A stretch of DNA of 64,000 nt, taken from contig JAFGCN010000009.1 of NCBI GenBank assembly GCA_016932615.1, positions 62,001 to 126,000 of the forward strand, written 5' to 3'. This document shows positions 50,428-63,047 of this stretch, piece by piece; the first letter of the stretch is position 1, and each line of letters starts with the position of its first letter. Below the pieces are notes generated by a model. The model was not told the origin of the DNA. It saw only the letters and a list, made by a program, of their open reading frames with translations, and made no database searches. Made by a program: the position numbers and the translations under genes. Source of the stretch: Candidatus Aenigmatarchaeota archaeon. GTDB taxonomy: Archaea > Aenigmatarchaeota > Aenigmatarchaeia > QMZS01.

Positions 50428-50482
50428 GGTTGCCTTTTATATGATTTCAGAGCCCCGTTGCATATATTTAAGAAGTTATATT

Positions 50483-51058
50483 ATGTCTCAGGACGGCATA
50501 GTTGTGGAGAAAGCACAGGGCTCAGTCTTAGTGAAGATAGCTCCTAAGATATACCCTCTTCCAATAATTTATCAGGCGGCAGATGTCTTTATAGACAAAA
50601 ATTATGTTTTTCTTGATGGTGACCCGGAAAAAGAAGTCTTGGTTACTATCAAGCCAAAGGATTCCTCTGCAGATTTGGAGGCGATTGCGGGGGACTTTCA
50701 TAACGAGCTTCTGAACTATTCGGCCTATTTCGTAAGGGCTGCCACAAACCGGGATTTGAGGGAGCTTATTCTGAAAAGGGCTTTTTTTTCGGTAAAAATG
50801 GACGCCCAAGAAGACGAAGCATTTAGGGAAAAGCTTGATGAAAAGGAAGTCATAGATATAGGTACAAAGGTTCCAATCTTTGGGGACCTAGAACAAAATG
50901 AGCAAACTCCTTTGGCGGGGGGTTGTGGTTCTCGGTCATCGGACGCAATATGGTCAGAAGAGGATGATTTTGACTTGGACGAGATAAGCAAGCCTTGGGA
51001 CGAGCAAAAAGGGAAAATGGACTCATTGCCAAAACAATTAAAAGAGAATCACAAATGA
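50483..51058 (+). CDS. hxsD: HxsD-like protein with acidic C-terminal extension
   Basis: A 191-residue protein. Residues about 14-102 match the HxsD family of His-Xaa-Ser systems: VLVKIAPKIYPLPIIYQAADVF, VLVTIKPKDSSADLEAIAGDF, then HNELLNYSAYFVRAATNRDLRELILKRAF in parts, corresponding to the family's LLNDYxLRE signature. HxsD accompanies radical SAM maturases and may bind or present the substrate. Residues from about 105 are an extra, very acidic and polar tail (DDFDLDEISKPWDEQ). The start at 50483 is chosen because it lies after A+T-rich promoter DNA; 50441 is possible. The next radical SAM gene starts 13 bases on. Confidence 0.72.
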   Translation: MSQDGIVVEKAQGSVLVKIAPKIYPLPIIYQAADVFIDKNYVFLDGDPEKEVLVTIKPKDSSADLEAIAGDFHNELLNYSAYFVRAATNRDLRELILKRAFFSVKMDAQEDEAFREKLDEKEVIDIGTKVPIFGDLEQNEQTPLAGGCGSRSSDAIWSEEDDFDLDEISKPWDEQKGKMDSLPKQLKENHK

Positions 51059-51071
51059 TATTCCTCTAAAT

Positions 51072-52067
51072 ATGCTTGGAAAAGTGGTTACGGTGGATAT
51101 AAAATTTGGCTATTCATGCAATAATAACTGTGTGCATTGTGTTATTGCCGGGCATAAGGAGAGGCTGAGAAACGAAGGAAAGCCCGTAGACAGAACAACG
51201 GATGAGATAATGGGGCATCTTACCGATGCAAAACGGCTTGGCGCAACCTCGGTAGTATTTACTGGGGGAGAAGTTACCATAAGATCGGATTATTTTGAGC
51301 TTTTGAAGTTTGCGGCAGATTTGGGACTTTTTATCAGCTTGCAAACAAATGGCAGATCTTTTTGCTTTAGGGATTTTGCAAAAAGAACGCTCATTATTTG
51401 TCCAAATATGCATTTTGAGATTGCAATTCATTCGGACAATGCGGCCCGTCATGACGCTATTACTAGGGCAAAGGGTTCTTTTGAACAAACTCTGGCAGGG
51501 ATAAAGAACCTTAAGGAGGTCGGGGCTAAGAGTTTAAATTTTAAGGTGGTTATTTCAAAATTGAACTTTAGATCTTTGCCGGCTATTATTGACTTGGCAA
51601 GGATTTGCGGTGCCAAACAAGTAGATATAGCATATCCTCATGGGATGGGCAATGCGTTAAAGTACTGGCATGAAATCATCCCCCGCTATAGTGAAATCTC
51701 AGAATATCTCCTTGCGGCGGCCAGGGTTGGAATTAGCAGGGGAATAGCAGTAACCTATGAGGCAGTCCCTTTTTGTTTTTTAGCGGGATTTGAAACCTGT
51801 GTCTCAGAACTTCATTATCTGAGGGGTTATTCGAAGGGAGAAACTTCCTCTCTGAGGCAGGTCGGGGACCCTGAAATTGATTGGCAAAGAAATCGCATCT
51901 CCATAAAGGCCAAATCAAAAAACTGTACAAATTGCAAATTTTTCAATATCTGTGAGGGAGTATGGAAAGAATACCTGGAAAAATATGGTTCAGAAGAACT
52001 TAAGCCTGTTTTTGGTAGAGCTATTTTGACCTATGAAGGGCTTTTAGATTGCGTTAATAATCCTTAG
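51072..52067 (+). CDS. Radical SAM enzyme with C-terminal SPASM-like cysteines
   Basis: A 331-residue radical SAM protein. The [4Fe-4S] motif CNNNCVHC is at residues 16-23 (Cx3Cx2C), GGE in VVFTGGEVT contacts SAM, and the barrel follows. A C-terminal CTNCKFFNICEGVWKEY-like group is a reduced SPASM/twitch site for a second cluster, as in peptide-modifying maturases. Directly after the HxsD-like gene, it is a candidate HxsC-type partner by position, though I cannot confirm the subfamily. The A24 peptidase follows. Confidence 0.83.
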   Translation: MLGKVVTVDIKFGYSCNNNCVHCVIAGHKERLRNEGKPVDRTTDEIMGHLTDAKRLGATSVVFTGGEVTIRSDYFELLKFAADLGLFISLQTNGRSFCFRDFAKRTLIICPNMHFEIAIHSDNAARHDAITRAKGSFEQTLAGIKNLKEVGAKSLNFKVVISKLNFRSLPAIIDLARICGAKQVDIAYPHGMGNALKYWHEIIPRYSEISEYLLAAARVGISRGIAVTYEAVPFCFLAGFETCVSELHYLRGYSKGETSSLRQVGDPEIDWQRNRISIKAKSKNCTNCKFFNICEGVWKEYLEKYGSEELKPVFGRAILTYEGLLDCVNNP

Positions 52068-52083
52068 TTTGGTTACAGATATT

Positions 52084-53139
52084 ATGCTCTATCTGACTTC
52101 CTTAGATATTCTTCGAATGTTGATTTTTTCCGTCTTTGGAATATTCCTATCCTATATAGACTTCAAGGAAAAAAAAGTCTACAATCTACACCTGATTTTT
52201 ATGGCTCTGGCAGGTTTGGTTCTATTCGCTTTTGGAATGTATCCCGATTTGTATGGATCCTTGCTGGTAAATTTTCTCTTTGCCTTTTTTACAGGCATCC
52301 TTTTTTGGAAGATTGGGCTCTGGGGGGCAGGCGATGGCAAACTTTTTGCAATTTGCTCATTTTACCTGCCATTTAAGATGTATTTGTCCTTTTTTTACGC
52401 TCAGGTTATATTGGTCAACGTTTTCATTTTGGCTTTTCTAATATGGTTTCTGCCATTAATATTAAAAACCAAATTTTCAGAAAAAGTTCAGGCCTTTAAA
52501 CAAACCTTCACCAGGGATAATGTATTAAACTTAGGATTGCTCATCTTTGGGCTATTTTATTTTGTCGGCACTTTGCTTTCTTTACTTGATTTGGGCCTTT
52601 ATACAACAGGGTATATTATTGCGTTGTTTATAGGTCTGGCGTCATATGCAGTCTTGAGAAGATTTTTTTCACGTAACCTGACCTACATTCTTTTCGTCTT
52701 ATGCCTCGCAAGATTTTTTTTTGATATATCCATATTTACTATGTATTTTTGGGAATTGTTTGCACTCACCATGGCAATTTTGCTAATTGCCATGTGGTTT
52801 GGTAATTTGAGTATCTATATATCGTATGACGAAAAAAGGCTGTGTGATCTGGAGGAAGGGGATGTGCCTATCGGAGTGATCACTACCAAAGGCACGACAA
52901 TTGAGCTCAAAAAATGGCTGGATAGGCATCTTGTTGCTGGTGAGCTTATCATGAAGAAAGGGTTTTCCAAAGAAGATCTTGGGCGATTTGGAGGATTGAA
53001 GGGTATAGAGGGTTTCTTGACTAAGAAGACAGTATGTTTTACCCCTCTGATAATTGTGGCAGTATTGCTGGTCGCAATCCTCAAGGTAGATATACTGACC
53101 TACCTATTGTCTGAGATACACTATCATTTACTTGAATGA
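52084..53139 (+). CDS. A24-family prepilin-type leader peptidase with long C-terminal extension
   Basis: A 351-residue membrane aspartic peptidase. The two catalytic aspartates are Asp26 (YIDFKEKKV) and Asp84 in GAGDGKLF (the GxGD motif). The peptidase part covers about residues 1-180. After it, two more hydrophobic blocks flank a cytoplasmic domain (ISYDEKRLCDLEEGDVPIGVI, KKWLDRHLVAGELIMKKGF), which most such peptidases lack. It could cut class III signal peptides of the pilin-like proteins here, or a leader of a peptide made in the island. The ATG at 52084 is preferred over a TTG at 52069. Confidence 0.85.
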   Translation: MLYLTSLDILRMLIFSVFGIFLSYIDFKEKKVYNLHLIFMALAGLVLFAFGMYPDLYGSLLVNFLFAFFTGILFWKIGLWGAGDGKLFAICSFYLPFKMYLSFFYAQVILVNVFILAFLIWFLPLILKTKFSEKVQAFKQTFTRDNVLNLGLLIFGLFYFVGTLLSLLDLGLYTTGYIIALFIGLASYAVLRRFFSRNLTYILFVLCLARFFFDISIFTMYFWELFALTMAILLIAMWFGNLSIYISYDEKRLCDLEEGDVPIGVITTKGTTIELKKWLDRHLVAGELIMKKGFSKEDLGRFGGLKGIEGFLTKKTVCFTPLIIVAVLLVAILKVDILTYLLSEIHYHLLE

Positions 53140-54147
53140 TTTGCTGATTTTTGAGCAGTCCTCCAAGGCCTCTATGCAATACTTGCCTCTGCAAAGGTCT
53201 TTGTCGCATTCAATGATTCTATTGAAGAATCCTAGCTTTTCCAGGCTTTTGTTGTTTATAGACCTACCGAATTTTTTATTAAAGCAGTCTAGATTGGAAT
53301 CCATGATGTCGAGAAGGTTTCCTTCAAAATTTTCAGAAAGATACGCCTTTGTGGTATTTATGATCCATTCTTTTGAGTGAGATCTTCCGGTTATTTTGAA
53401 ATAATTGGTGATCTTTCCATAGGTTTTTAGATTTTCTGGATTAATCCACGGGGACATTAAGATTAAGCTTGGCTCGTTTGCGGATAGTTTATGGCAATTG
53501 AAAAAGAATGCCTCTTTCGGGTCAATGCCCTCTACTGAACAATGAGATACAAGGTTAAAGTGAAATATCCGGTAGGGGCATTTATAGAGGCATCCTTCAT
53601 TCACCATTAATTTAAGCTCGCATCCCGTAGAATGCCTTATGTCCTCAAGCAGTCTCAAATTCCGGTTGATGTCCCTATCTGGAGTTATGGTGGATGCTCC
53701 AAAACGCTTGAAGAGTACGGCCCTTTGGATGGAATCTATCTGGGACAGTACGGAGGCAGATATTTTAATCTTTGGGAATTCACTGCTTATTTTTTGAATC
53801 CATAGAGGGTTTGCGATGGTGACTCTTTCTAAGCCATGCTCCCGATAAAGTGTCTCTACAAGTTTGAGGACTTTTGAAACATTTGATTCGGAATACCCAT
53901 TTAGACCTTCGCATGTAGAATTCAGAAGCATATTGGCTTTGATACCTTCTTTGTGACAAAATTCGGTAACCTTTGCGATGTCCTTAGGGGTGGTTTTATC
54001 CATTACTCTGCCTGAACCACAATGGTCCTGCGGTCCAGAAAAATAAATCTCCTCTATACGGTTTCCGTTTATTTCCTTTATTCTTGCCAATTCTTCCAAT
54101 AAGGAAAAATCATTATTGTAGGGGACAGAGAACTTCATATTGACCAT
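53128..54147 (-). CDS. U32-family (UbiU/V-like) protein
   Basis: A 339-residue protein with the U32 peptidase-family pattern: the NPLWIQ strand near 114, RFGASTITPDRDINRNL near 148-165 and VNEGCLYKCPYRIFHF near 182-198. The family's conserved Cys residues (C186, C190, C203 and later ones, including CDKDLCRGKYC) suggest an iron-sulfur cluster, as in UbiU/UbiV. Such proteins help hydroxylation or tRNA/peptide modification rather than proteolysis. It overlaps the A24 gene end by 12 bases (convergent), and follows the B12-type radical SAM gene with a 17-base gap. Confidence 0.78.
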   Translation of the reverse strand: MVNMKFSVPYNNDFSLLEELARIKEINGNRIEEIYFSGPQDHCGSGRVMDKTTPKDIAKVTEFCHKEGIKANMLLNSTCEGLNGYSESNVSKVLKLVETLYREHGLERVTIANPLWIQKISSEFPKIKISASVLSQIDSIQRAVLFKRFGASTITPDRDINRNLRLLEDIRHSTGCELKLMVNEGCLYKCPYRIFHFNLVSHCSVEGIDPKEAFFFNCHKLSANEPSLILMSPWINPENLKTYGKITNYFKITGRSHSKEWIINTTKAYLSENFEGNLLDIMDSNLDCFNKKFGRSINNKSLEKLGFFNRIIECDKDLCRGKYCIEALEDCSKISKSFK

Positions 54148-54164
54148 AATTAGGCATTTGACTT

Positions 54165-55703
54165 TTATATGGAATATACTCTTTTTTCATTTTCATGCAC
54201 GATTTCAAAGTTTAAAATTTCACGGGGATTTTTTTCTCTAAATATGCCCAAAGTACAGGATGACTGAAAACAGTCCACCATGTTTTTCCTGAATTGTAGA
54301 CTCCGTTTGTCAGGTGTTGCAAGGCGGTATTTTATACACCGACTTGCCATAGTTTCTATTTTTTCAGGCAATTTTGGGCCAATTATTTTTTGAGGTTCGT
54401 ATGTGATGCCATATTCTTCCGGATGCATTCCCATTGGGCTATTCATGTCTAAATAATGTATGCCAAGGCATGCCTCCATACCTTCTTTAAAGCAGTAGTT
54501 CAGTCTCCTCAATATTTTCAAATTTCTGATAAACTCTGTTTCAGATTCTCCCGGATAGCCATATACCATGCCGATGCGGCATTCTATTCCGGACTGATGG
54601 GTGGCTTCCAGAGTTTTAACCATCTCCGCCACGGTTATCTTTTTATTCATATCCTCCAATATTCTTTGATTGAAGCTTTCAACTCCAAATCTAAGGGTCC
54701 TGCATCCGGAACGTTTCATTTTTTTGAGTATTTCCGGAGTTAGATTCTGTGTCCTTGCACAGGCATCCCAGACAATGTCCAGATTTTCACCAATCAAAGC
54801 ATCACAAAGCCCATTCAGCCACTTAATATCTATGTTGATAGAGGTGTCGTCAAAGCTGAAGATTGCCTTTTTCTTTAGCTTCTCCTTCTGGGTTTTTATC
54901 TCTTCGATTACGCCTTCAATATTTCTTTGTCTAAAATTGATGTAGAGATTGTTGCAAAAGGAACAGCTGTAAGGGCAACCGCGGCTACCCATAATAGGCA
55001 CCAGTTCATATTGGGCAAGGTCTGAGCCATTCCAATCCGGGAATGAAATCTGATCAATATTTATGAGGGGACCAGGTTTATTTTGGATCACTTTGCCCTC
55101 TTTAAAATAACTTATCTGGGGGATAAGGCCTATCTTCTTTTTGCCACAGTAGTAGTCTAACAATTCAACTATTGCTTTTTCCCCCTCACCTTGAACAATG
55201 ATGTCGCACAGGCCAAGCTTCAGAAATAGTTCTTTGTAGAGGTCATAATTGCAGGTCCATCCACCAAAAACTATTGGGATTTTTTCTTCTTCTCGGATTA
55301 TTTTGCTCAAAATAATGCTGAGGTATTCATTAGATTCATGCAAAGAAAATAAGAGTATATCCGGATTTTTTAACAGTATGGACTTCGAATATTTTTCTGC
55401 AAGCTTCCACATACGTTCGATAACCCTTGGCCTATTAGCCCTGCCAGGAAACAATGTGCTCAAGAGAACATTCAAATTCGGCATACCCACAGGGATACGG
55501 TCATTAAAATCATGCTTTTTTTTATCCAGTGCAAATGAAATCAGTTCTTGGTAATCTCGCGGGTTATTGTGGAATAGGTCTATATTTAGATCGTGAATCT
55601 CTGTGGTATGTCCGCAATTCTGTATGGCTGAGTTTATATACCCAATTCCCAGAGGGGCACAATCCATGTAACCTGTAGGTGCGAATACTATGCTTGCTTT
55701 CAT
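54165..55703 (-). CDS. Radical SAM enzyme with N-terminal B12-binding-like domain
   Basis: A 512-residue protein. The N-terminal 190 residues form a Rossmann/B12-binding-like fold (IVFAPTGYMDCAPLGIGYINSA), but the typical DxHxxG cobalamin-ligand motif is not evident. The radical SAM barrel has CPYSCSFC (C243, C247, C250) and FGVESFNQRILEDMNK, GYPGESETEF. Such enzymes catalyse methylations or ring rearrangements. It is translated together with the U32-family gene, so the two probably share a step. Which cofactor is used cannot be decided. Confidence 0.88.
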   Translation of the reverse strand: MKASIVFAPTGYMDCAPLGIGYINSAIQNCGHTTEIHDLNIDLFHNNPRDYQELISFALDKKKHDFNDRIPVGMPNLNVLLSTLFPGRANRPRVIERMWKLAEKYSKSILLKNPDILLFSLHESNEYLSIILSKIIREEEKIPIVFGGWTCNYDLYKELFLKLGLCDIIVQGEGEKAIVELLDYYCGKKKIGLIPQISYFKEGKVIQNKPGPLINIDQISFPDWNGSDLAQYELVPIMGSRGCPYSCSFCNNLYINFRQRNIEGVIEEIKTQKEKLKKKAIFSFDDTSINIDIKWLNGLCDALIGENLDIVWDACARTQNLTPEILKKMKRSGCRTLRFGVESFNQRILEDMNKKITVAEMVKTLEATHQSGIECRIGMVYGYPGESETEFIRNLKILRRLNYCFKEGMEACLGIHYLDMNSPMGMHPEEYGITYEPQKIIGPKLPEKIETMASRCIKYRLATPDKRSLQFRKNMVDCFQSSCTLGIFREKNPREILNFEIVHENEKRVYSI

Positions 55704-55804
55704 AATACTTTTTGCCTATTCAAATACTGCCGGGTCTCTTGGCCCTAAATGCTTCTCTACCCGACATGGGCCTGCAGTATATTGTTTTTTTAAGTCTAAA
55801 GCAT

Positions 55805-56734
55805 ATGGTAAACTTAATAGTTACCGAGAAATGTAACCAGAATTGCCCTTATTGTTTCTTTGAGAGGGTGGGCGGGAAAGAGCTTTCTTGGGAGAACTTT
55901 CAAAAATTTTTGGAATGGTGTGTTAAAAATGATTTGACTAGGGTACAGCTTCTTGGGGGAGAGCCTTTTTTACACAGGGACATCTATAAGATCATTCAGG
56001 TGCTTAACAAAACAGGGATTGGTGTGGACACAATAACTAACGGGCTTGTACCTATCGATAAGGACTTGCTGTTGGGGCTTAACCCGCTTTCCTTTTTGGT
56101 GAATTATACTGCTTCAAGTACAATGGAGAACAGAGAGGAATTGCGTAAAAATCTTGACATTTTGTCTCGGATTAGCCCTTCAGCACTTACAATGGCTGTG
56201 ACGTTGTACCGGTTTAATCAGGACCTTGAGGACCTATGGCGTCTTTTAGATCTCTATAGAATTAGAGCCTTAAGGGTTGATTTGGCTCAACCTTCGGCAT
56301 CGAGGAATAATCTCTTTGTCCCTTTGACCCAGTACTCTGGTTTTAAGGGGCAGTTGGTGGATATTTTCAAGAAATGCAAAAGAAATAAAATCTCTTTGTT
56401 ATTTGACTGTGGTTTGAGTTGCAGCATTAACCGGATATTTTCGGAGGGCGAATTGAGTCTTTTTAGAAAAAACGTTCGCATTGCGACCCGATTCTGCAAA
56501 CCCGTAGTGGATATATTCCCAGATTTATCTGCTTCTTACTGTTTTCCACTACAATACATAAAGATCAAAAATTGTTTGGATTACCGGTATTCAGAGTTGG
56601 TTGGAGAGTTGCATAACGGAGTTAAGGACTACTTGGACTACGATAGACGGTATCAAGGGTGTTGTATTGCACACCTGGAAAATCTGGGGTTAAAGGCAAG
56701 CAAGCCTCTAGACAGAAATGATTCCCGCTGCTGA
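55805..56734 (+). CDS. Radical SAM enzyme with cysteine-rich C-terminus
   Basis: A 309-residue radical SAM protein. The cluster motif CNQNCPYC is at residues 10-17, GGEPF is at about 50-54, and the C-terminus has further cysteines (CGLSCS, CCIAHL, DSRC). It is compact and lacks a separate N-terminal domain, like peptide-modifying maturases. The ATG at 55805 was selected because the longer frame from 55712 runs into the divergent promoter region. The following gene starts 128 bases later. Confidence 0.82.
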   Translation: MVNLIVTEKCNQNCPYCFFERVGGKELSWENFQKFLEWCVKNDLTRVQLLGGEPFLHRDIYKIIQVLNKTGIGVDTITNGLVPIDKDLLLGLNPLSFLVNYTASSTMENREELRKNLDILSRISPSALTMAVTLYRFNQDLEDLWRLLDLYRIRALRVDLAQPSASRNNLFVPLTQYSGFKGQLVDIFKKCKRNKISLLFDCGLSCSINRIFSEGELSLFRKNVRIATRFCKPVVDIFPDLSASYCFPLQYIKIKNCLDYRYSELVGELHNGVKDYLDYDRRYQGCCIAHLENLGLKASKPLDRNDSRC

Positions 56735-56862
56735 AACCCCCGGAGTATAGTATTCCATCTGAACAGAGGTTTGTTGCCAGTTAGGCCTCGACGAAAGGTT
56801 TTACTCCTGACCTGAATTTGGTTTGGTCAGATAGAATATGCTTGTTGAATGGCTATATACTT

Positions 56863-57693
56863 ATGCCAGGGTACAACTTATCAGAGGTTCTTAAAACTAG
56901 CGGGATTCAGGGGGTTGTAGAGAGTATCTATGGGACTTATTATTTGAAAGATGTGGGTGTGGTGAGAGGGGATAATTCATATTTTGTTTTTGCCAAATAT
57001 TCATCTTCTAACCTTGTTGATGAGGTCACCCGGGAAGAGTTTTATTTCATTTTGGAAACTAAGTTTAATTGCGATAGCAGTTATGGGGTAAACTTTAGGG
57101 GAACCTACTTTATAAATACCCATCTGCCCGAACAGAATGTGTTTACATTTAGCATGGCCAATGCCTTTAGAATTTCCTGGCGAGATAAGAACCTTTTAAA
57201 TACCCTGGTTAGCTTTGATCACTGTGAAGAAGAACTGAAACGGCTGGCGTTCTCTATAATTGATGGGCGAAGAGGCGTTAATCAAGAGACCTTAGAGTTG
57301 TTTGCCCGGGTTCCGGAGACTTTTCTTGGATTGAATCTGGCTAAGCTCCAGCAATCATTATGTAGGCTGGTCATTGGGGGCAAGCAGAAAATGTTCAGGC
57401 GGCTTTCAGCAATCTACTGCAAGGAGGGTGGCGATTTAGAAATGTATTTCATGCCCGATGCATCCGCTCGGCTTAACAAAGCATTGCTTATTTGGGAATT
57501 TTTTGGGGATTTTGCAAAAGAGATTACCTTCCATAACGATAACTACTTTGATCTTGGATCTCACCCAAAAACTACCCCGGGCTACTTCTTACTTGCTAAA
57601 CCCAAGAATTGCCTCCTTATTGTATGCTCAAAATCCTACCCTAAGCAAAAACTAAGGTCTATTGCCAAAATGTTTTTGGGTTGTTTAATCTGA
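56863..57693 (+). CDS. Island protein of unknown function (276 aa)
   Basis: I do not recognise this protein. It is soluble, with no signal or membrane segment. Features are PGYNLSEVLKTSGIQG, VRGDNSYFVFAKY, a Cys-containing middle (SFDHCEEEL, LCRLVIGGKQKMFRRL) and a C-terminal hydrophobic-basic end (LIVCSKSYPKQKLRS). It sits between two radical SAM genes, so a substrate, carrier or partner role is possible. The ATG at 56863 is used; a TTG at 56818 would lengthen it by 15 residues. Confidence 0.6.
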   Translation: MPGYNLSEVLKTSGIQGVVESIYGTYYLKDVGVVRGDNSYFVFAKYSSSNLVDEVTREEFYFILETKFNCDSSYGVNFRGTYFINTHLPEQNVFTFSMANAFRISWRDKNLLNTLVSFDHCEEELKRLAFSIIDGRRGVNQETLELFARVPETFLGLNLAKLQQSLCRLVIGGKQKMFRRLSAIYCKEGGDLEMYFMPDASARLNKALLIWEFFGDFAKEITFHNDNYFDLGSHPKTTPGYFLLAKPKNCLLIVCSKSYPKQKLRSIAKMFLGCLI

Positions 57694-57849
57694 ACTCCTT
57701 ATCTATCGAGCTCACCCCCAAATTTGTGGCGCGAGATGCTCTAGGCACACTGTCTGGTTAGGGTGCATTTGGAACTGAATTGCAGTATGAAGTCTACAGA
57801 TACAAGGTCTCTCATTTTGTACAAATAGCTAACCTTTTAGAAAAGGATT

Positions 57850-59304
57850 ATGGAGGTGTCGTCTTGTCAGGACCAGCGTAAACTGAGATATCTGGATAAA
57901 GTGTCTTCAATAGTACCTAAGGTTCGTGATCCTGGCTTGAAGGGGAGATTGGGGAGTTTTGAGCATGCTTTGAGTTGCTATAATGAAGTTGGACTGAGAG
58001 ATGATCCTTTGCCTGCGGAGGCTGTTCCGAGGGATAAAGACTTTGTAAGGGACGCCTGGAAGGTTTGTCTGGAGAGAAGCCCAAATCATCATTTATCACT
58101 CTATATCCACATACCTTTTTGCCTTGAGTCCAGATGCAAGTATTGCCGAGAGTATTCCACCATTTTAGAAGACCGAAAAGAGTTGGTGCGGTATCTGGAT
58201 TACTTGACCGAAGAGATGCAATTTTTTTCTCCGGTATTTTTGAGAAATATCTTTAGCAACCTGTATATTGGAGGGGGAACCTCTTCAATCTTCTCGTCAG
58301 AACAATTGGACATTCTCTATACGCGAATTCATAAATATCTCCAGGTAGACACAAAAAAAGAATGCACTGTCGAAATGTCCCCAAGTACTGCTACAAAAGA
58401 AAAAGTGGATTTGGTTAAAAGACACGGGTTTAATCGGATAAGCTTGGGGATACAATCTCTGGATGAGGGGGTTTTGAGAGAAAATAATCGTATATTCGTT
58501 TCACACACCCGGCTGAAAGACCTATTTGATTATATAAGGAGTAGGAATATTGGATGTTTAAGTGCTGATTTGTTGCTCGGTCTTACTGGTGACACGGAAA
58601 AAAGTCTCTTAAGGAGTATTGAGGGGCTTATCAATCTCGGACCCGATGCAATTGTGTTGATTAGGATAGTCAAAAATCCAGTTATGCCCTTCCCGATGGA
58701 TCCCTTGTCCAGAGCAAATTTATTCAGGAAATTGTATCTGAATCAGAGAGAGAATGTGAATATCGGTATTAATTACCCTGTTGCAGACTATTCTATTCTG
58801 GAGGTTCACAAGAAAGCCGAATCTCTGCTGGAGAGTTGCGGATATATTAAAAAATACGGTGGGGTCGAGACAATAGAAACTCACTTTTTCAAGGAAGGTA
58901 AGGGACCCCATTTTGAGAATTATAATTTAGATCAATATAATGAACAATCTGTGCTGGGGTTGGGAATTGGCGCCGCCTCAAAAGTTGGCTACGGTCCTTA
59001 TTATGCAGATATTACGAATATTAAGTCGGATTATTCTTTCAAAACTTCAGTGTACTACTGTAAATATCATGCCCCAAGAGACCAAATGAGGATGTACCTG
59101 AGAAGCAAACTCTTTTCTCAAAGCCAATTCCCATTCATCTCAATTCCCGAGTTTAGACGCAAATTCAAAACAGAGCTTCTGGAGGAGTTCGGGGAGGAAA
59201 TTGATGTCCTGAAATGGCTGGGTCTTGGTGTGGTGCACAAAGATGAGCTTATTCTTTCCCCCAGAGATGATTATGATCGGGTTTTAATGACCAGAATCTT
59301 TTAG
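57850..59304 (+). CDS. HemN-like radical SAM enzyme with unusual Cx4Cx2C cluster motif
   Basis: A 484-residue radical SAM protein. SLYIHIPF precedes CLESRCKYC (C91, C96, C99), so the first spacing is Cx4C instead of the usual Cx3C. LYIGGGTSS and GFNRISLGIQSL are typical of the coproporphyrinogen oxidase/HemN-like family, as is the C-terminal HemN-type end. An 80-residue helical N-terminal extension precedes the barrel. It could be a methyltransferase-type or HemW-like enzyme; heme oxidation itself is not supported by neighbours. It overlaps the next (opposite-strand) gene by 4 bases. Confidence 0.82.
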   Translation: MEVSSCQDQRKLRYLDKVSSIVPKVRDPGLKGRLGSFEHALSCYNEVGLRDDPLPAEAVPRDKDFVRDAWKVCLERSPNHHLSLYIHIPFCLESRCKYCREYSTILEDRKELVRYLDYLTEEMQFFSPVFLRNIFSNLYIGGGTSSIFSSEQLDILYTRIHKYLQVDTKKECTVEMSPSTATKEKVDLVKRHGFNRISLGIQSLDEGVLRENNRIFVSHTRLKDLFDYIRSRNIGCLSADLLLGLTGDTEKSLLRSIEGLINLGPDAIVLIRIVKNPVMPFPMDPLSRANLFRKLYLNQRENVNIGINYPVADYSILEVHKKAESLLESCGYIKKYGGVETIETHFFKEGKGPHFENYNLDQYNEQSVLGLGIGAASKVGYGPYYADITNIKSDYSFKTSVYYCKYHAPRDQMRMYLRSKLFSQSQFPFISIPEFRRKFKTELLEEFGEEIDVLKWLGLGVVHKDELILSPRDDYDRVLMTRIF

Positions 59305-60260
59305 CTTCTTGCCAATCTCTCTGTTTCTCCGATAAAATTTGCCGTCTGTTTCATACAGTCATAGTCTCTAAGTTTCTCTATGGTTGCTAAAAGAAGTGCT
59401 TCCATACAGGATTCATAATCTCTGAATTCTGGGGTGGTTTCATTGTTGCCAACAGTTATGGAGTAGTTGTTCTTGGTATTAGAAAAGGCAATGTTGAAAA
59501 ATGCTCCGTTGCCACTCTTCTTTATGGGAAGTCCCTTCTGGCTAATATCTGTCCCGGTCTGCTCAATGCTAATTTTGCCTTCGGACATTTTGTAGATAAA
59601 CCTAAGCACCACATTGAGGTATTTTCCCGCCAGACCATAGTTCCCCTGTATGACTGAAACTAGATGATTTTCACCGTCTATATGGTGTCCTTGATATGTG
59701 GCAAATATGGTGGCCAGTTCCCAATCCCCGACTTTCGCAGGGAGATATTTTATAAAATCGAACAAGGGGAGGGAGGTTGGGGTATTTTTTTTCCTTGAGC
59801 AAAGAAGAAGGAACTCTTTGAGGGCATCATCTTTTTTTGCGTCATAAAACGAATGCAGGCCGGTCCAATCTTTGGGATTTGCCTCCTGAACGTTTTTGAG
59901 GCTGATTGCGGTAGTGACTGTAGTTTTGTGTGTGATGGATGCGAAATTATGTCCTCCTTCCGAGAGTTTTTTTGCTAGCGGAAAATCTGGGACATACCCA
60001 AACAGTACCTCCTGCCCCCCTATCCTTTCTGAGCAGAAATAATCTATCTCAGGCACATCTCTAAAACATTCTGTGAGGATTATGTAGTCTTCAGTTGTGT
60101 TCCCCCTTTCCAGAGGAGATCTGGAGTATCGACACCCGATTCTAACTGGAGCGTCTTTACTATAATTGTTGAAAAAGAAGTCTCCTGGAAAGTATATCCT
60201 TCTTAGATCCGGAAGTAGTTTGGCATATTCTGAAAACTTTTCCTTTAGCGCATCATCCAT
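59301..60260 (-). CDS. Island protein of unknown function (319 aa)
   Basis: I do not recognise this protein. It begins with a charged helical stretch (DDALKEKFSEYAKLLPDL) and continues with mixed strands (VLFGYVPDFPLAKKL, SITHKTTVTTAISLK). A Gly/Asn-rich C-terminal third (GNGAFFNIAFSNTKNNYS) precedes the end. One CxxxxC-like pair (ECFRDVPEIDYFC) lies near residue 65. No membrane segment is seen. It is divergent from the small HxsD-like gene, with a 26-base gap. Its codon use matches the island. Confidence 0.6.
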   Translation of the reverse strand: MDDALKEKFSEYAKLLPDLRRIYFPGDFFFNNYSKDAPVRIGCRYSRSPLERGNTTEDYIILTECFRDVPEIDYFCSERIGGQEVLFGYVPDFPLAKKLSEGGHNFASITHKTTVTTAISLKNVQEANPKDWTGLHSFYDAKKDDALKEFLLLCSRKKNTPTSLPLFDFIKYLPAKVGDWELATIFATYQGHHIDGENHLVSVIQGNYGLAGKYLNVVLRFIYKMSEGKISIEQTGTDISQKGLPIKKSGNGAFFNIAFSNTKNNYSITVGNNETTPEFRDYESCMEALLLATIEKLRDYDCMKQTANFIGETERLARS

Positions 60261-60286
60261 AGATTAATTTAAGGTTTGGATTTATT

Positions 60287-60532
60287 ATGTTTCCCATTCA
60301 GAGTTCAGATAAACAGGCAAAAATACGATTTAATAGGGATTTTTACGATATGTTTCCAATAACTGAAGTCTGTGAGCGGTTTGAGAGCATAACCCGGATT
60401 CAGGTAATTTTTGTTCAGGATAAAAACTGGCTGGAAGTAGTTCTGATTCCTAAGACGGATATGGACATTGAAGAGTTGGCATTGGAGTTCTGCAACCATT
60501 GTTTGCATGAGCAGATCATGGTTTCAAGGTAG
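60287..60532 (+). CDS. hxsD: Second small HxsD-like protein
   Basis: An 81-residue protein matching the core of HxsD without the acidic tail of the copy at 50483: AKIRFNRDFYDMFPITEVCERF, VIFVQDKNWLEVVLIPKTDMDIEELALEFCNHCLHEQI. The pattern of an early FY, a hydrophobic V-x-L-x-PK strand and a late helical FxNxxL/FCNHCL stretch aligns with HxsD. It lies 155 bases before the HxsB-like gene, the pairing seen in His-Xaa-Ser loci. Confidence 0.68.
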   Translation: MFPIQSSDKQAKIRFNRDFYDMFPITEVCERFESITRIQVIFVQDKNWLEVVLIPKTDMDIEELALEFCNHCLHEQIMVSR

Positions 60533-60687
60533 TTTGTGGTTTTGATCAGTTGGCACGGCAGTTTTGAGAGGAGGTACCATAAAAAATAAAATTGTCGGGT
60601 CCAGGCCGATTTGCCTCAACTTCGGTTGATTGCCCTGCAAGGCATCCGGATGGACAAAGGGTTAAAAGATAAAGAGTGTGCCTTATT

Positions 60688-62142
60688 ATGGCTCAGACAT
60701 TCTCAATAGATACTAAAGGATATATAGTCAATGAATATTTAACAAGGAAATTGGCGGGTGGAAAGACTCTTGTAACTACCCGACATGGTGGATGGGCGAT
60801 TTTGGACGAAAAAGAATATGCTCTATTGAGGCATGGGGAGGTAGAGGCAGACATAGAGTTGTATAATCTCTTAAGGCAGGAGGGCATAATTCTCACTGAA
60901 GATACCCTTTCCGCGGTTACCACCCAGCATTGCCAAAAATTTCATCAATTATTCGGTGCGACTACGCTCCATATACTTACGCCTACACTGAGGTGCAATC
61001 AAAAGTGTGTTTATTGCTATGCAAATTCAAGACCCCTCAAGGACAAACAATGGGATATGGATAGGAAAACTGCAAAATCAATTGTCGACTTCATATTTCA
61101 GTGTCCTTCTGGACGCATAACCATAGAGTTTCAGGGGGGAGAACCTCTCCTGAATTTTCCGATTTTGCAATATGTTGTAGAGTATGCAAAAAAACTAAGT
61201 GGTCGTAATAATAAGGCTGTGAATTTCCGTGTTGTCACAAATCTAACCCTAATGAACGAAAAGATACTGGACTGGCTGGTTGAGAATAATGTGGAACTGA
61301 ATACCTCCTTGGATGGACCACAATATGTTCATGATAAAAATAGATTCTACGAAAATATGGGGGGTTGCTATGCTGATGTGGTCGAACAGTTAGCGTGTAT
61401 CAAAAAACGAGGGGTTCAAATAGGTTTGATGCCCACAATTACCCGAGGTTCATTGCCTTACTGGAAGGAGATAATTGACGAATATGTTCGCCAAGGCCAG
61501 CCTGGATTTTGGGCAAGGAGGATGGGTATTGGAGGATTTGCGGTTGAGCGTTGGAAGGAAATAGGATATAGCGTGGAAGAATATCTTGACTTCTGGAAAA
61601 AGTGTGTTGAATATATATTTGAGTTAAATCTTAAGGGAACTCGATTTTCTGAGGGTTATGTGGGAATTATACTGAAGAATGTCATTTTTTCAAAAAGATA
61701 TAACTCATTTGTCTGTATGGCTTCGCCATGTGGTTGTGCGTGGAGTCAGGTTTCTTATGATTACCAGGGAAATATCTTTGCCTGTGACGAAGCAAGAAGT
61801 TTTGAAATATTCCGACTTGGGAATGTTAAGGATACTACCTATCCAGAATTGTATTCCAGCTGGGATATTTTAAATATAGTAGATTTAACTTCCGGAAACT
61901 CTTTTGACTGTGCAAATTGCGCCTACCATCCTTTTTGCGGACCCTGCATTGTGGACGAGTATGGCGAACATGGGTCGATAGTTAAAAAACCAGATTCGTT
62001 CAATTGCAGGGTAAAACGAGGGATGCTGGACTATGTTTTCGGTGAGGTTATTCCCAATAAGGAAAGGTTCAAAATTGCGCAGGGCTGGGTGGGTGTGGGC
62101 AGGAACGAGGCTATAAAAGATCTCCCTGAAAACAGCGCATAA
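60688..62142 (+). CDS. hxsB: HxsB-like radical SAM/SPASM maturase
   Basis: A 484-residue radical SAM enzyme. The first 95 residues resemble the HxsB leader-recognition part (TKGYIVNEYLTRKLAGGKT, EKEYALLRHGEV). The cluster motif is CNQKCVYC (C103, C107, C110) in LHILTPTLRCNQKCVYCYA; EFQGGEPLLNFPIL and VVTNLTLMNEKILDWL are close to HxsB. The C-terminal SPASM cysteines are CANCAYHPFCGPC plus a final Cys. HxsB/HxsC crosslink or modify a His-Xaa-Ser peptide. The ATG at 60688 is used; a GTG at 60676 is possible. Confidence 0.82.
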   Translation: MAQTFSIDTKGYIVNEYLTRKLAGGKTLVTTRHGGWAILDEKEYALLRHGEVEADIELYNLLRQEGIILTEDTLSAVTTQHCQKFHQLFGATTLHILTPTLRCNQKCVYCYANSRPLKDKQWDMDRKTAKSIVDFIFQCPSGRITIEFQGGEPLLNFPILQYVVEYAKKLSGRNNKAVNFRVVTNLTLMNEKILDWLVENNVELNTSLDGPQYVHDKNRFYENMGGCYADVVEQLACIKKRGVQIGLMPTITRGSLPYWKEIIDEYVRQGQPGFWARRMGIGGFAVERWKEIGYSVEEYLDFWKKCVEYIFELNLKGTRFSEGYVGIILKNVIFSKRYNSFVCMASPCGCAWSQVSYDYQGNIFACDEARSFEIFRLGNVKDTTYPELYSSWDILNIVDLTSGNSFDCANCAYHPFCGPCIVDEYGEHGSIVKKPDSFNCRVKRGMLDYVFGEVIPNKERFKIAQGWVGVGRNEAIKDLPENSA

Positions 62143-62143
62143 A

Positions 62144-62314
62144 ATGGGTTTTAGAAGTTTTTTGAGAGACCTACTTACTTTGTACTTGGGATACCAGGTA
62201 ATAAAAAGTTACCTGTTTGGAGAGTTTTCATTCAGCATTATTCTACTTCTGGTTACAGTAGTCCTAATGGTTTTTACCCTCTGGTTTTTATTTGAAAAGC
62301 TGGGTCTTGTCTGA
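62144..62314 (+). CDS. 56-residue membrane peptide next to the HxsB-like gene
   Basis: The ATG is 1 base after the HxsB-like stop, so the two are translated together. The peptide begins MGFRSFLRDLLTLYLGYQV and has one long hydrophobic stretch (about 30-50, IILLLVTVVLMVFTLWFLF) before EKLGLV. No His-Xaa-Ser repeats are present. It may anchor or regulate the maturation complex, or be the substrate of an unusual kind; either is inference. The codon pattern fits the island. Confidence 0.55.
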   Translation: MGFRSFLRDLLTLYLGYQVIKSYLFGEFSFSIILLLVTVVLMVFTLWFLFEKLGLV

Positions 62315-62432: not shown

Positions 62433-63047
62433 TCACTGTGCGGTGATGTGCTGGGTATGTAGGTTCGCTTCCAACGCCGACTGAGGTTTCACCTCTTTTA
62501 AATTTTCCACTGTGTTTATATTTAAGAAATCCGCTGGATCGCTGAACGTAATTTTTTTGGTGCAATTACAGCCATCTATTACCGAATGCATACTTTCCTC
62601 AAAATTCCGATTCTGGAATATATTTTTCCTATATACAGCACATAATGGCTCAAGACGATTTTCAAATATTGGAACGATACAATCCACACTTTCATCCAAT
62701 TCAGATATAATCCTTGAAATGACCCTCTTATTGACTAAGGGCATGTCGCAAGCCACTACGAAAATAAACTTTTCCTCAACAGCGTTAAGTATTCCAGACA
62801 AGCCCGCAATTGGCGAAAATATTTCGCAATTGTCCTCAAGTATTTTTATGTGGGGATTATCGATGATTTTTTCCACTTTTAAGTGCTGTTCTTTATTTTT
62901 GACAACAACAACTGCCTTAAAAAAACATTCCTCCAGCAAATTTGCAAGTCGATTAATGACATAAGTTCCTCCTATATTTAGCAAAGCCTTATCCTTTCCA
63001 AATCTTTTTGAACGCCCGCCAGCCAAGATTACCCCACAAATCTCCAT
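62433..63047 (-). CDS. mobA: MobA-like molybdenum cofactor guanylyltransferase
   Basis: A 204-residue nucleotidyltransferase. GVILAGGRSKRFGKDKALLNIGG (residues about 5-27) and the ACDMPLVNKRVISRI motif fit MobA, which adds GMP to molybdopterin to form the guanine dinucleotide cofactor. The VASCDMP-type Asp is at about residue 99. It starts 22 bases from a divergent molybdopterin oxidoreductase gene, which would need that cofactor. Related MobA-like enzymes for CMP transfer exist, so nucleotide choice is uncertain. Confidence 0.88.
   Translation of the reverse strand: MEICGVILAGGRSKRFGKDKALLNIGGTYVINRLANLLEECFFKAVVVVKNKEQHLKVEKIIDNPHIKILEDNCEIFSPIAGLSGILNAVEEKFIFVVACDMPLVNKRVISRIISELDESVDCIVPIFENRLEPLCAVYRKNIFQNRNFEESMHSVIDGCNCTKKITFSDPADFLNINTVENLKEVKPQSALEANLHTQHITAQ

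Follow-up and report, generated by a model that had tools for sequence, protein, structure and literature searches.

We analysed a 64,000-nucleotide stretch of DNA from a Candidatus Aenigmatarchaeota archaeon (the window; bases 62001-126000 of the 221 kb contig JAFGCN010000009.1, in a 1.26 Mb genome that is 97% complete) and conclude that its genes from ~50.2 kb onward likely constitute a horizontally acquired archaeal maturation island of the His-Xaa-Ser (Hxs) type, with products acting as in the mechanism proposed below. Judged by sequence, the enzyme core is that of an Hxs system; measured against the canonical family it fails on the repeat and on HxsC, and a linked peptidase and candidates for anaerobic tailoring are added. 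The island appears to act on a small histidine-rich protein, which it would chemically modify, trim and display. An initial annotation had described positions 50483-62314 as a variant archaeal Hxs-related maturation locus, and this description holds: HxsB scored over its curated cut-off and the cluster recurs in other archaea.

The radical S-adenosylmethionine (SAM) protein at 60676 (60688 in the initial annotation, which had likened it to HxsB) lies inside the HxsB family, with 392.1 bits against TIGR03978 (curated cut-off 370); its nearest solved relatives are the radical SAM protein 5wgg and anaerobic sulfatase-maturating enzymes. The HxsC-like protein at 51072 reached 91.8 bits with TIGR03977 (cut-off 267.9) and 134.9 bits with the HxsC4 model NF038332 (cut-off 500), and a second HxsC-like copy gave 102.8 and 106.5 bits against the HxsC models, so that both fall outside the curated models. 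Two proteins had been called HxsD-like: the one at 60287 (HxsD2) stood inside NF038315, whereas the one at 50441/50483 (HxsD1) matched TIGR03976 with E 3.3e-9 and 37 bits, below the cut-off of 50. HxsD1, which had no sequence match in the PDB, was predicted to fold into an alpha-beta core (core predicted local distance difference test (pLDDT) score 93-98) weakly resembling the dimerisation folds of Rpb11/AC19, Pcc1 and DCoH (E 0.025 to 0.12). This resemblance, together with the frequent pairing of HxsD1 and HxsD2 in related loci, is a hint that the two may form a heterodimer.

No substrate of the HxsA type had been seen in the reported range, and this proved to be an effect of the window edge. 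With the leader motif and the sequence downstream of the window, we located an HxsA-like protein of 119 amino acids 7.7 kb beyond the window end, 9.4 kb downstream of the reported range: MIPAIKKELRSFILEEKGGAQKQVLISLGAMLAGLDALNVVSHMVTGANISSKHDHCDPGHSSGHSNGASGYSGWHGSGTSHSNADGVPSSHCNDSAHGSNSHRDANAAHGNNIVLNYG. Its leader is the conserved HxsA leader found in many archaea and bacteria. The protein is small and rich in His, and its gene is linked to those of the maturases. The best library match was to NCBIfam HxsA3 (E 1.9e-5, 24.4 bits). Its HxHCDPGH box corresponds in alignment to HxHYDPAH/HxHFDPAH in HxsA proteins that do bear the repeat and come from neighbouring branches of the HxsB tree. Orthologues were found in the DPANN archaeon KA24 (61% identity) and in Altiarchaeales IMC4 (63%). 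In KA24 the gene is convergent with an HxsC gene, as here, and the order beta-propeller, HxsC, HxsA (convergent) is common to both genomes; in IMC4 it lies ~290 kb from HxsB. The absence of His-Xaa-Ser repeats from the reported range was borne out, and across the whole genome there was neither a match to TIGR03979 nor a three-unit HxS repeat (searched as a DNA pattern), which we attribute to loss of the repeat from the substrate. In other loci we observed HxsA leaders fused to larger C-terminal domains (L042:7059-8366, L079:3977-5368, L102:6850-7422), which by eye resemble a Hint/intein-like start 'CCLPGGTKVLMGDGSLKN', a 'CPFVAVWNG' domain and a tail-spike-chaperone-like end.

The A24 peptidase had been put forward as a possible leader-cutting enzyme. 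Scored by presence within 6 kb of HxsB, an A24 gene was found in 37 of 50 archaeal loci versus 4 of 24 bacterial ones; 11 of the 13 archaeal loci without it are interrupted by a contig or stretch end inside the 6-kb range, and IMC4, scored negative, has its A24 gene slightly more than 6 kb from HxsB. The whole genome contains only two A24 genes, and the catalytic-type residues Asp31 and Asp89 are invariant in the alignment. A prepilin-like [DERK][GA]| site precedes a hydrophobic stretch in HxsA leaders, with [DERK] at -2 and [GA] at -1 in 40 of 41 leaders (the Gly being fixed by the search pattern); when HxsA proteins were chosen by HxS content alone, an acidic-Gly leader was present in 24/24 archaeal cases. 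Where bacterial HxsA proteins depart from the strict pattern, most have EEGKILKK or EEAKISSK, in which EEG or EEA is followed by slightly different residues; the -1 residue can accordingly be described as Gly or Ala. Processing sites listed in a description of the FlaFind approach include KGQV, RALS and DAVS (PMC4371748). The linkage to HxsB and the prepilin-like leaders together make it well supported by genomics that the A24 protein would be the leader-cutting enzyme of HxsA; we infer the cleavage itself. Archaeal prepilin processing (PibD/EppA, class III signal peptides) is similar in the charged -2 residue, Gly/Ala at -1, the hydrophobic stretch and the A24 aspartic peptidase. It differs in that here Lys is usually at +1, the leader is longer and Lys-rich and may serve maturase recognition, and an additional A-x-A signal-peptidase-like site often follows the hydrophobic stretch (seen by eye in many HxsA proteins). 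Among the literature results examined, none linked A24 peptidases to Hxs systems. In an Altiarchaeales locus, the next gene after A24 encodes a NodU-like carbamoyltransferase (L047:18006-19769).

The island is an AT-richer block of ~22 kb (~50.2 to ~72.1 kb) that extends 8 kb beyond the window end; the GC (guanine plus cytosine) content is 46.6% before it, 41.2% inside and 47.8% after it. Open frames were present at all the coordinates of the initial annotation. Its five radical SAM proteins (51072, 54165, 55712/55805, 57850, 60676/60688) were recovered by Pfam and NCBIfam, its A24 peptidase (52069) and U32 protein (53128) by Pfam, and the two proteins it left unrecognised (56818, 59301) matched no NCBIfam or Pfam family. 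The genes are listed below, with those past the window in L023, the next 14 kb downstream (L023 position + 64000 = window-equivalent position).

50441..51058, + strand: HxsD1, long HxsD-like protein with tail motif I-S-K-P-W (TIGR03976, below cut-off; alignment of 47); start may be ATG 50483
51072..52067, + strand: HxsC-like radical SAM protein (NF038332 HxsC4 and TIGR03977 HxsC, both below cut-off; CX3CX2C)
52069..53139, + strand: A24 (prepilin/preflagellin-type) membrane peptidase (PF01478, 36.1 bits, above cut-off; alignment; linkage to HxsB)
53128..54147, - strand: U32a, U32-family protein (PF01136, above cut-off; alignment)
54165..55703, - strand: B12-binding radical SAM protein, nearest to C-methyltransferases of ribosomally synthesised and post-translationally modified peptides (TIGR03975; NCBIfam/Pfam)
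55712..56734, + strand: radical SAM protein without curated subfamily (PF04055); start may be ATG 55805
56818..57693, + strand: protein of no known family, no counterpart in related loci
57850..59304, + strand: HemN/HemW-like radical SAM protein with a CX4CX2C cluster motif (relative in L046)
59301..60260, - strand: protein of no known family, kept in KA24, Nanohaloarchaea GLR72 and Altiarchaeales IMC4
60287..60532, + strand: HxsD2, short HxsD-like protein (NF038315, 48.1 bits over cut-off 41)
60676..62142, + strand: HxsB radical SAM/SPASM maturase (TIGR03978, over cut-off)
62144..62314, + strand: membrane peptide of 56 amino acids, not conserved, no sign of a substrate role
62433..63047, - strand: MobA-like molybdenum cofactor guanylyltransferase, adjoining the molybdopterin enzyme also in relative L046
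63070..64000, on to window-equivalent 65148, + strand: molybdopterin oxidoreductase, nearest solved structure acetylene hydratase
L023:1233-2189: protein of 318 amino acids
L023:2149-3162: U32b
L023:3224-4618: U32c
L023:5271-6599: beta-propeller protein
L023:6742-7680: second HxsC-like radical SAM protein (HxsC2)
L023:7714-8073 = window-equivalent 71714-72073, - strand: HxsA-like substrate, 119 amino acids

Beyond 62314 the island thus continues with the MobA and molybdopterin oxidoreductase genes, both of which also occur in the loci of relatives, and past the window end it holds, besides the HxsA-like protein, HxsC2 as the sixth radical SAM protein, U32b and U32c as additional U32 proteins, and the beta-propeller protein. 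Four of the five radical SAM proteins in the window have CxxxCxxC, the exception being the HemW-like protein; in its Nanohaloarchaea homologue (L046) the spacing is normal, but the reading frame contains a stop. In number, the radical SAM genes are not exceptional, as several related loci carry arrays of ~5 HxsC-like genes; arrays of ~5 or 6 were observed in the Hxs loci L061, L071, L077, L086, L107 and L111.

One HxsB scan over genome contigs yielded 80 loci. The nearest HxsB relatives (60-62% identity) are in KA24, two Nanohaloarchaea metagenome-assembled genomes and Altiarchaeales IMC4, and in the HxsB tree this HxsB forms one clade with those of L044-L047 (support 100/99). HxsD2, HxsB, HxsC-like proteins and U32 are common to the nearest relatives, while HxsD1, A24, 59301, the beta-propeller, the HemW-like protein, the molybdopterin enzyme and MobA are shared by part of them; U32 is present in 4/4 close relatives and the molybdopterin enzyme in two. 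Whether related genomes hold the cluster, as had been asked of them, has a divided answer: no HxsB match was found in 10 genomes of the same taxonomic family, but the cluster recurs in unrelated archaea. Taken with the low GC content, this absence and this presence indicate that the island was probably acquired horizontally. It is bordered by an Sm_multidrug_ex gene, after which different genes follow in those family-member genomes that were read. Directly after the island (L023:8142-12901 and L129:25-9999, window-equivalent 72142 onward) we observed very large, related Cys-rich proteins of 1209, 368 and >3300 amino acids that are probably secreted; the two of them tested had no Pfam match.

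The U32 family includes O2-independent hydroxylases with four conserved Cys spaced CX6CX15CX3/4C (PMC6747719). U32b matches TrhP and UbiU, whereas U32a and U32c are PF01136-type proteins whose invariant Cys are spaced unlike this and which form their own divergent group tied to the island; those of U32a (Cys 79, 186, 190, 218, 314 and 324) could hold an iron-sulphur cluster, as a likeness to UbiU/UbiV and TrhP. In a Diapherotrites Hxs locus (L099:16990-18700), a U32 protein adjoins a homologue of the 318-amino-acid protein, as in the U32b pair here. For the full 692-amino-acid molybdopterin enzyme, the best solved relative is acetylene hydratase (PDB 2e7z, E 8e-108); a search with just the N-terminal part gave thiosulfate reductase as its sole hit at the stricter limit. 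MobA adjoins and no partner subunit gene was recognised nearby, which are points of likeness to acetylene hydratase/thiosulfate reductase-like enzymes. The motif, however, is CxxCHGGC in all three homologues, and acetylene hydratase activity is not implied. The prediction for protein 59301, made from a two-sequence alignment only, gave pLDDT 58 and template modelling (TM) scores of ~0.2, values too low to be informative.

Several observations weigh against an Hxs-type maturation island. The HxsC-like proteins and HxsD1 fall under the curated cut-offs, the fold match of HxsD1 is weak (best E 0.025), and the HxsA-like protein is far under the HxsA3 cut-off (24.4 of 65) with 3 HxS where composition predicts 2.1 (p 0.34). 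The classical archaeal class III rule includes the +1 residue, and the full rule fitted 2/41 leaders, the +1 residue usually being Lys. In IMC4 the HxsD1-like, 59301-like and HxsA genes are present yet spread across the genome. Sharing is broad only for U32 and 59301, and linkage of the B12, HemW-like and 55712 genes was not seen in all relatives. We know of no experiment on what HxsB or HxsC do, and none on their action was found in the literature searched. In that literature, His-Xaa-Ser and the names of the Hxs genes turned up as mentions only, with no product described; a 2022 paper calls the His-Xaa-Ser motif 'putatively' dependent on HxsB and HxsC (PMC9062424).

The block could alternatively comprise two adjacent units, a compact Hxs unit (HxsD1, HxsC, A24, HxsD2, HxsB, beta-propeller, HxsC2 and HxsA) and a second one, concerned with a small molecule or cofactor and unrelated to the first (U32, B12 radical SAM, 55712, HemW-like, MobA and molybdopterin enzyme), for which HxsA would not be a substrate. 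The compact KA24 locus, which lacks the B12, HemW-like, MobA and molybdopterin genes, fits such a division, as does the position of several extra genes on the opposite strand. However, U32a-type genes adjoin HxsB in 4/4 close relatives, the molybdopterin enzyme lies beside U32 in two, and the extra genes sit between HxsD1/HxsC/A24 on one side and HxsD2/HxsB on the other, in a block whose GC content is low throughout. We consider this division unlikely, with perhaps a one-in-four claim on our belief.

It is far less probable that the true substrate lies in the window. The initial annotation had named the unknown proteins and the 56-residue membrane peptide as candidates, and the latter frame does directly follow HxsB; the HxsD1 tail, with its GGCGSRSS run of Gly, Cys and Ser, would be another. 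Yet the 56-residue peptide and 56818 were ruled out, having no counterparts in related loci, and 59301 is conserved but has 319 amino acids and no HxsA leader. As a core peptide the HxsD1 tail was rejected, since in the alignment of 47 its Gly-Cys run is not conserved and only the short I-x-x-P-W end is; the leader-bearing HxsA-like protein, moreover, exists. Equally improbable is a type IV pilus-like filament, with HxsA cut by A24 to serve as its pilin-like subunit and the radical SAM genes decorating the filament: the prepilin-like leader and the linked A24 peptidase would suit it, but library scans of the island proteins recognised no pilus assembly ATPase or PilC-like gene, and the A-x-A site of many HxsA proteins would be needless for a pilin.

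In the maturation island that we favour, HxsD1 and HxsD2, perhaps as a heterodimer, would present the precursor for modification. Radical-based changes in the His-rich core would be the work of HxsB and the HxsC-like enzymes, and in this clade the U32 proteins, the B12 radical SAM protein and the acetylene-hydratase-like molybdopterin enzyme would add further ones. At the membrane, A24 would cleave the leader in prepilin-like fashion at EE(K)G|. The trimmed product would stay anchored or be surface-exposed together with the beta-propeller protein, and a role in metal binding or redox activity at the surface is plausible.

Compared with the Hxs system (TIGR03979/03978/03977/03976), the island shares HxsB over cut-off, HxsC-like and HxsD-like partners, the HxsA-type leader and a residual HxsA box. 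It differs in a substrate without the His-Xaa-Ser repeat and far from HxsB, in paired HxsD proteins (long and short), in HxsC and HxsD1 scoring below cut-offs, and in the linked A24, U32 and molybdopterin enzymes. Of the variant models HxsA3/HxsA4 and HxsC4 (NF038309, NF038313, NF038332), HxsA3 is what the substrate matches best in the library and HxsC4 what the HxsC-like proteins match best, but scores of 24.4/65 and 134.9/500 put both outside the curated models. Tentatively, and with more doubt than confidence, we propose that HxsA proteins may be a class of radical-SAM-modified proteins with a prepilin-like leader and a dedicated A24 peptidase; in this clade, U32 oxygen-independent hydroxylases and an acetylene-hydratase-like molybdopterin/tungstopterin enzyme may widen the set of modifications on a His-rich core without repeats. 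The outcome would be a heavily modified, anaerobic surface protein of an undescribed kind, which might itself be a metal or redox cofactor.

Searches based on the repeat overlook HxsA proteins that have lost it, which explains the false call that no substrate was present. Two features of the archaeal loci lend themselves to direct testing: the precursor is short, its compact core without repeats being easier for mass spectrometry than long His-Xaa-Ser repeats, and for the linked A24 peptidase a cleavage site can be predicted. If the U32 and molybdopterin enzymes do act on the peptide, anaerobic hydroxylation and hydration chemistry would reach ribosomal peptides.

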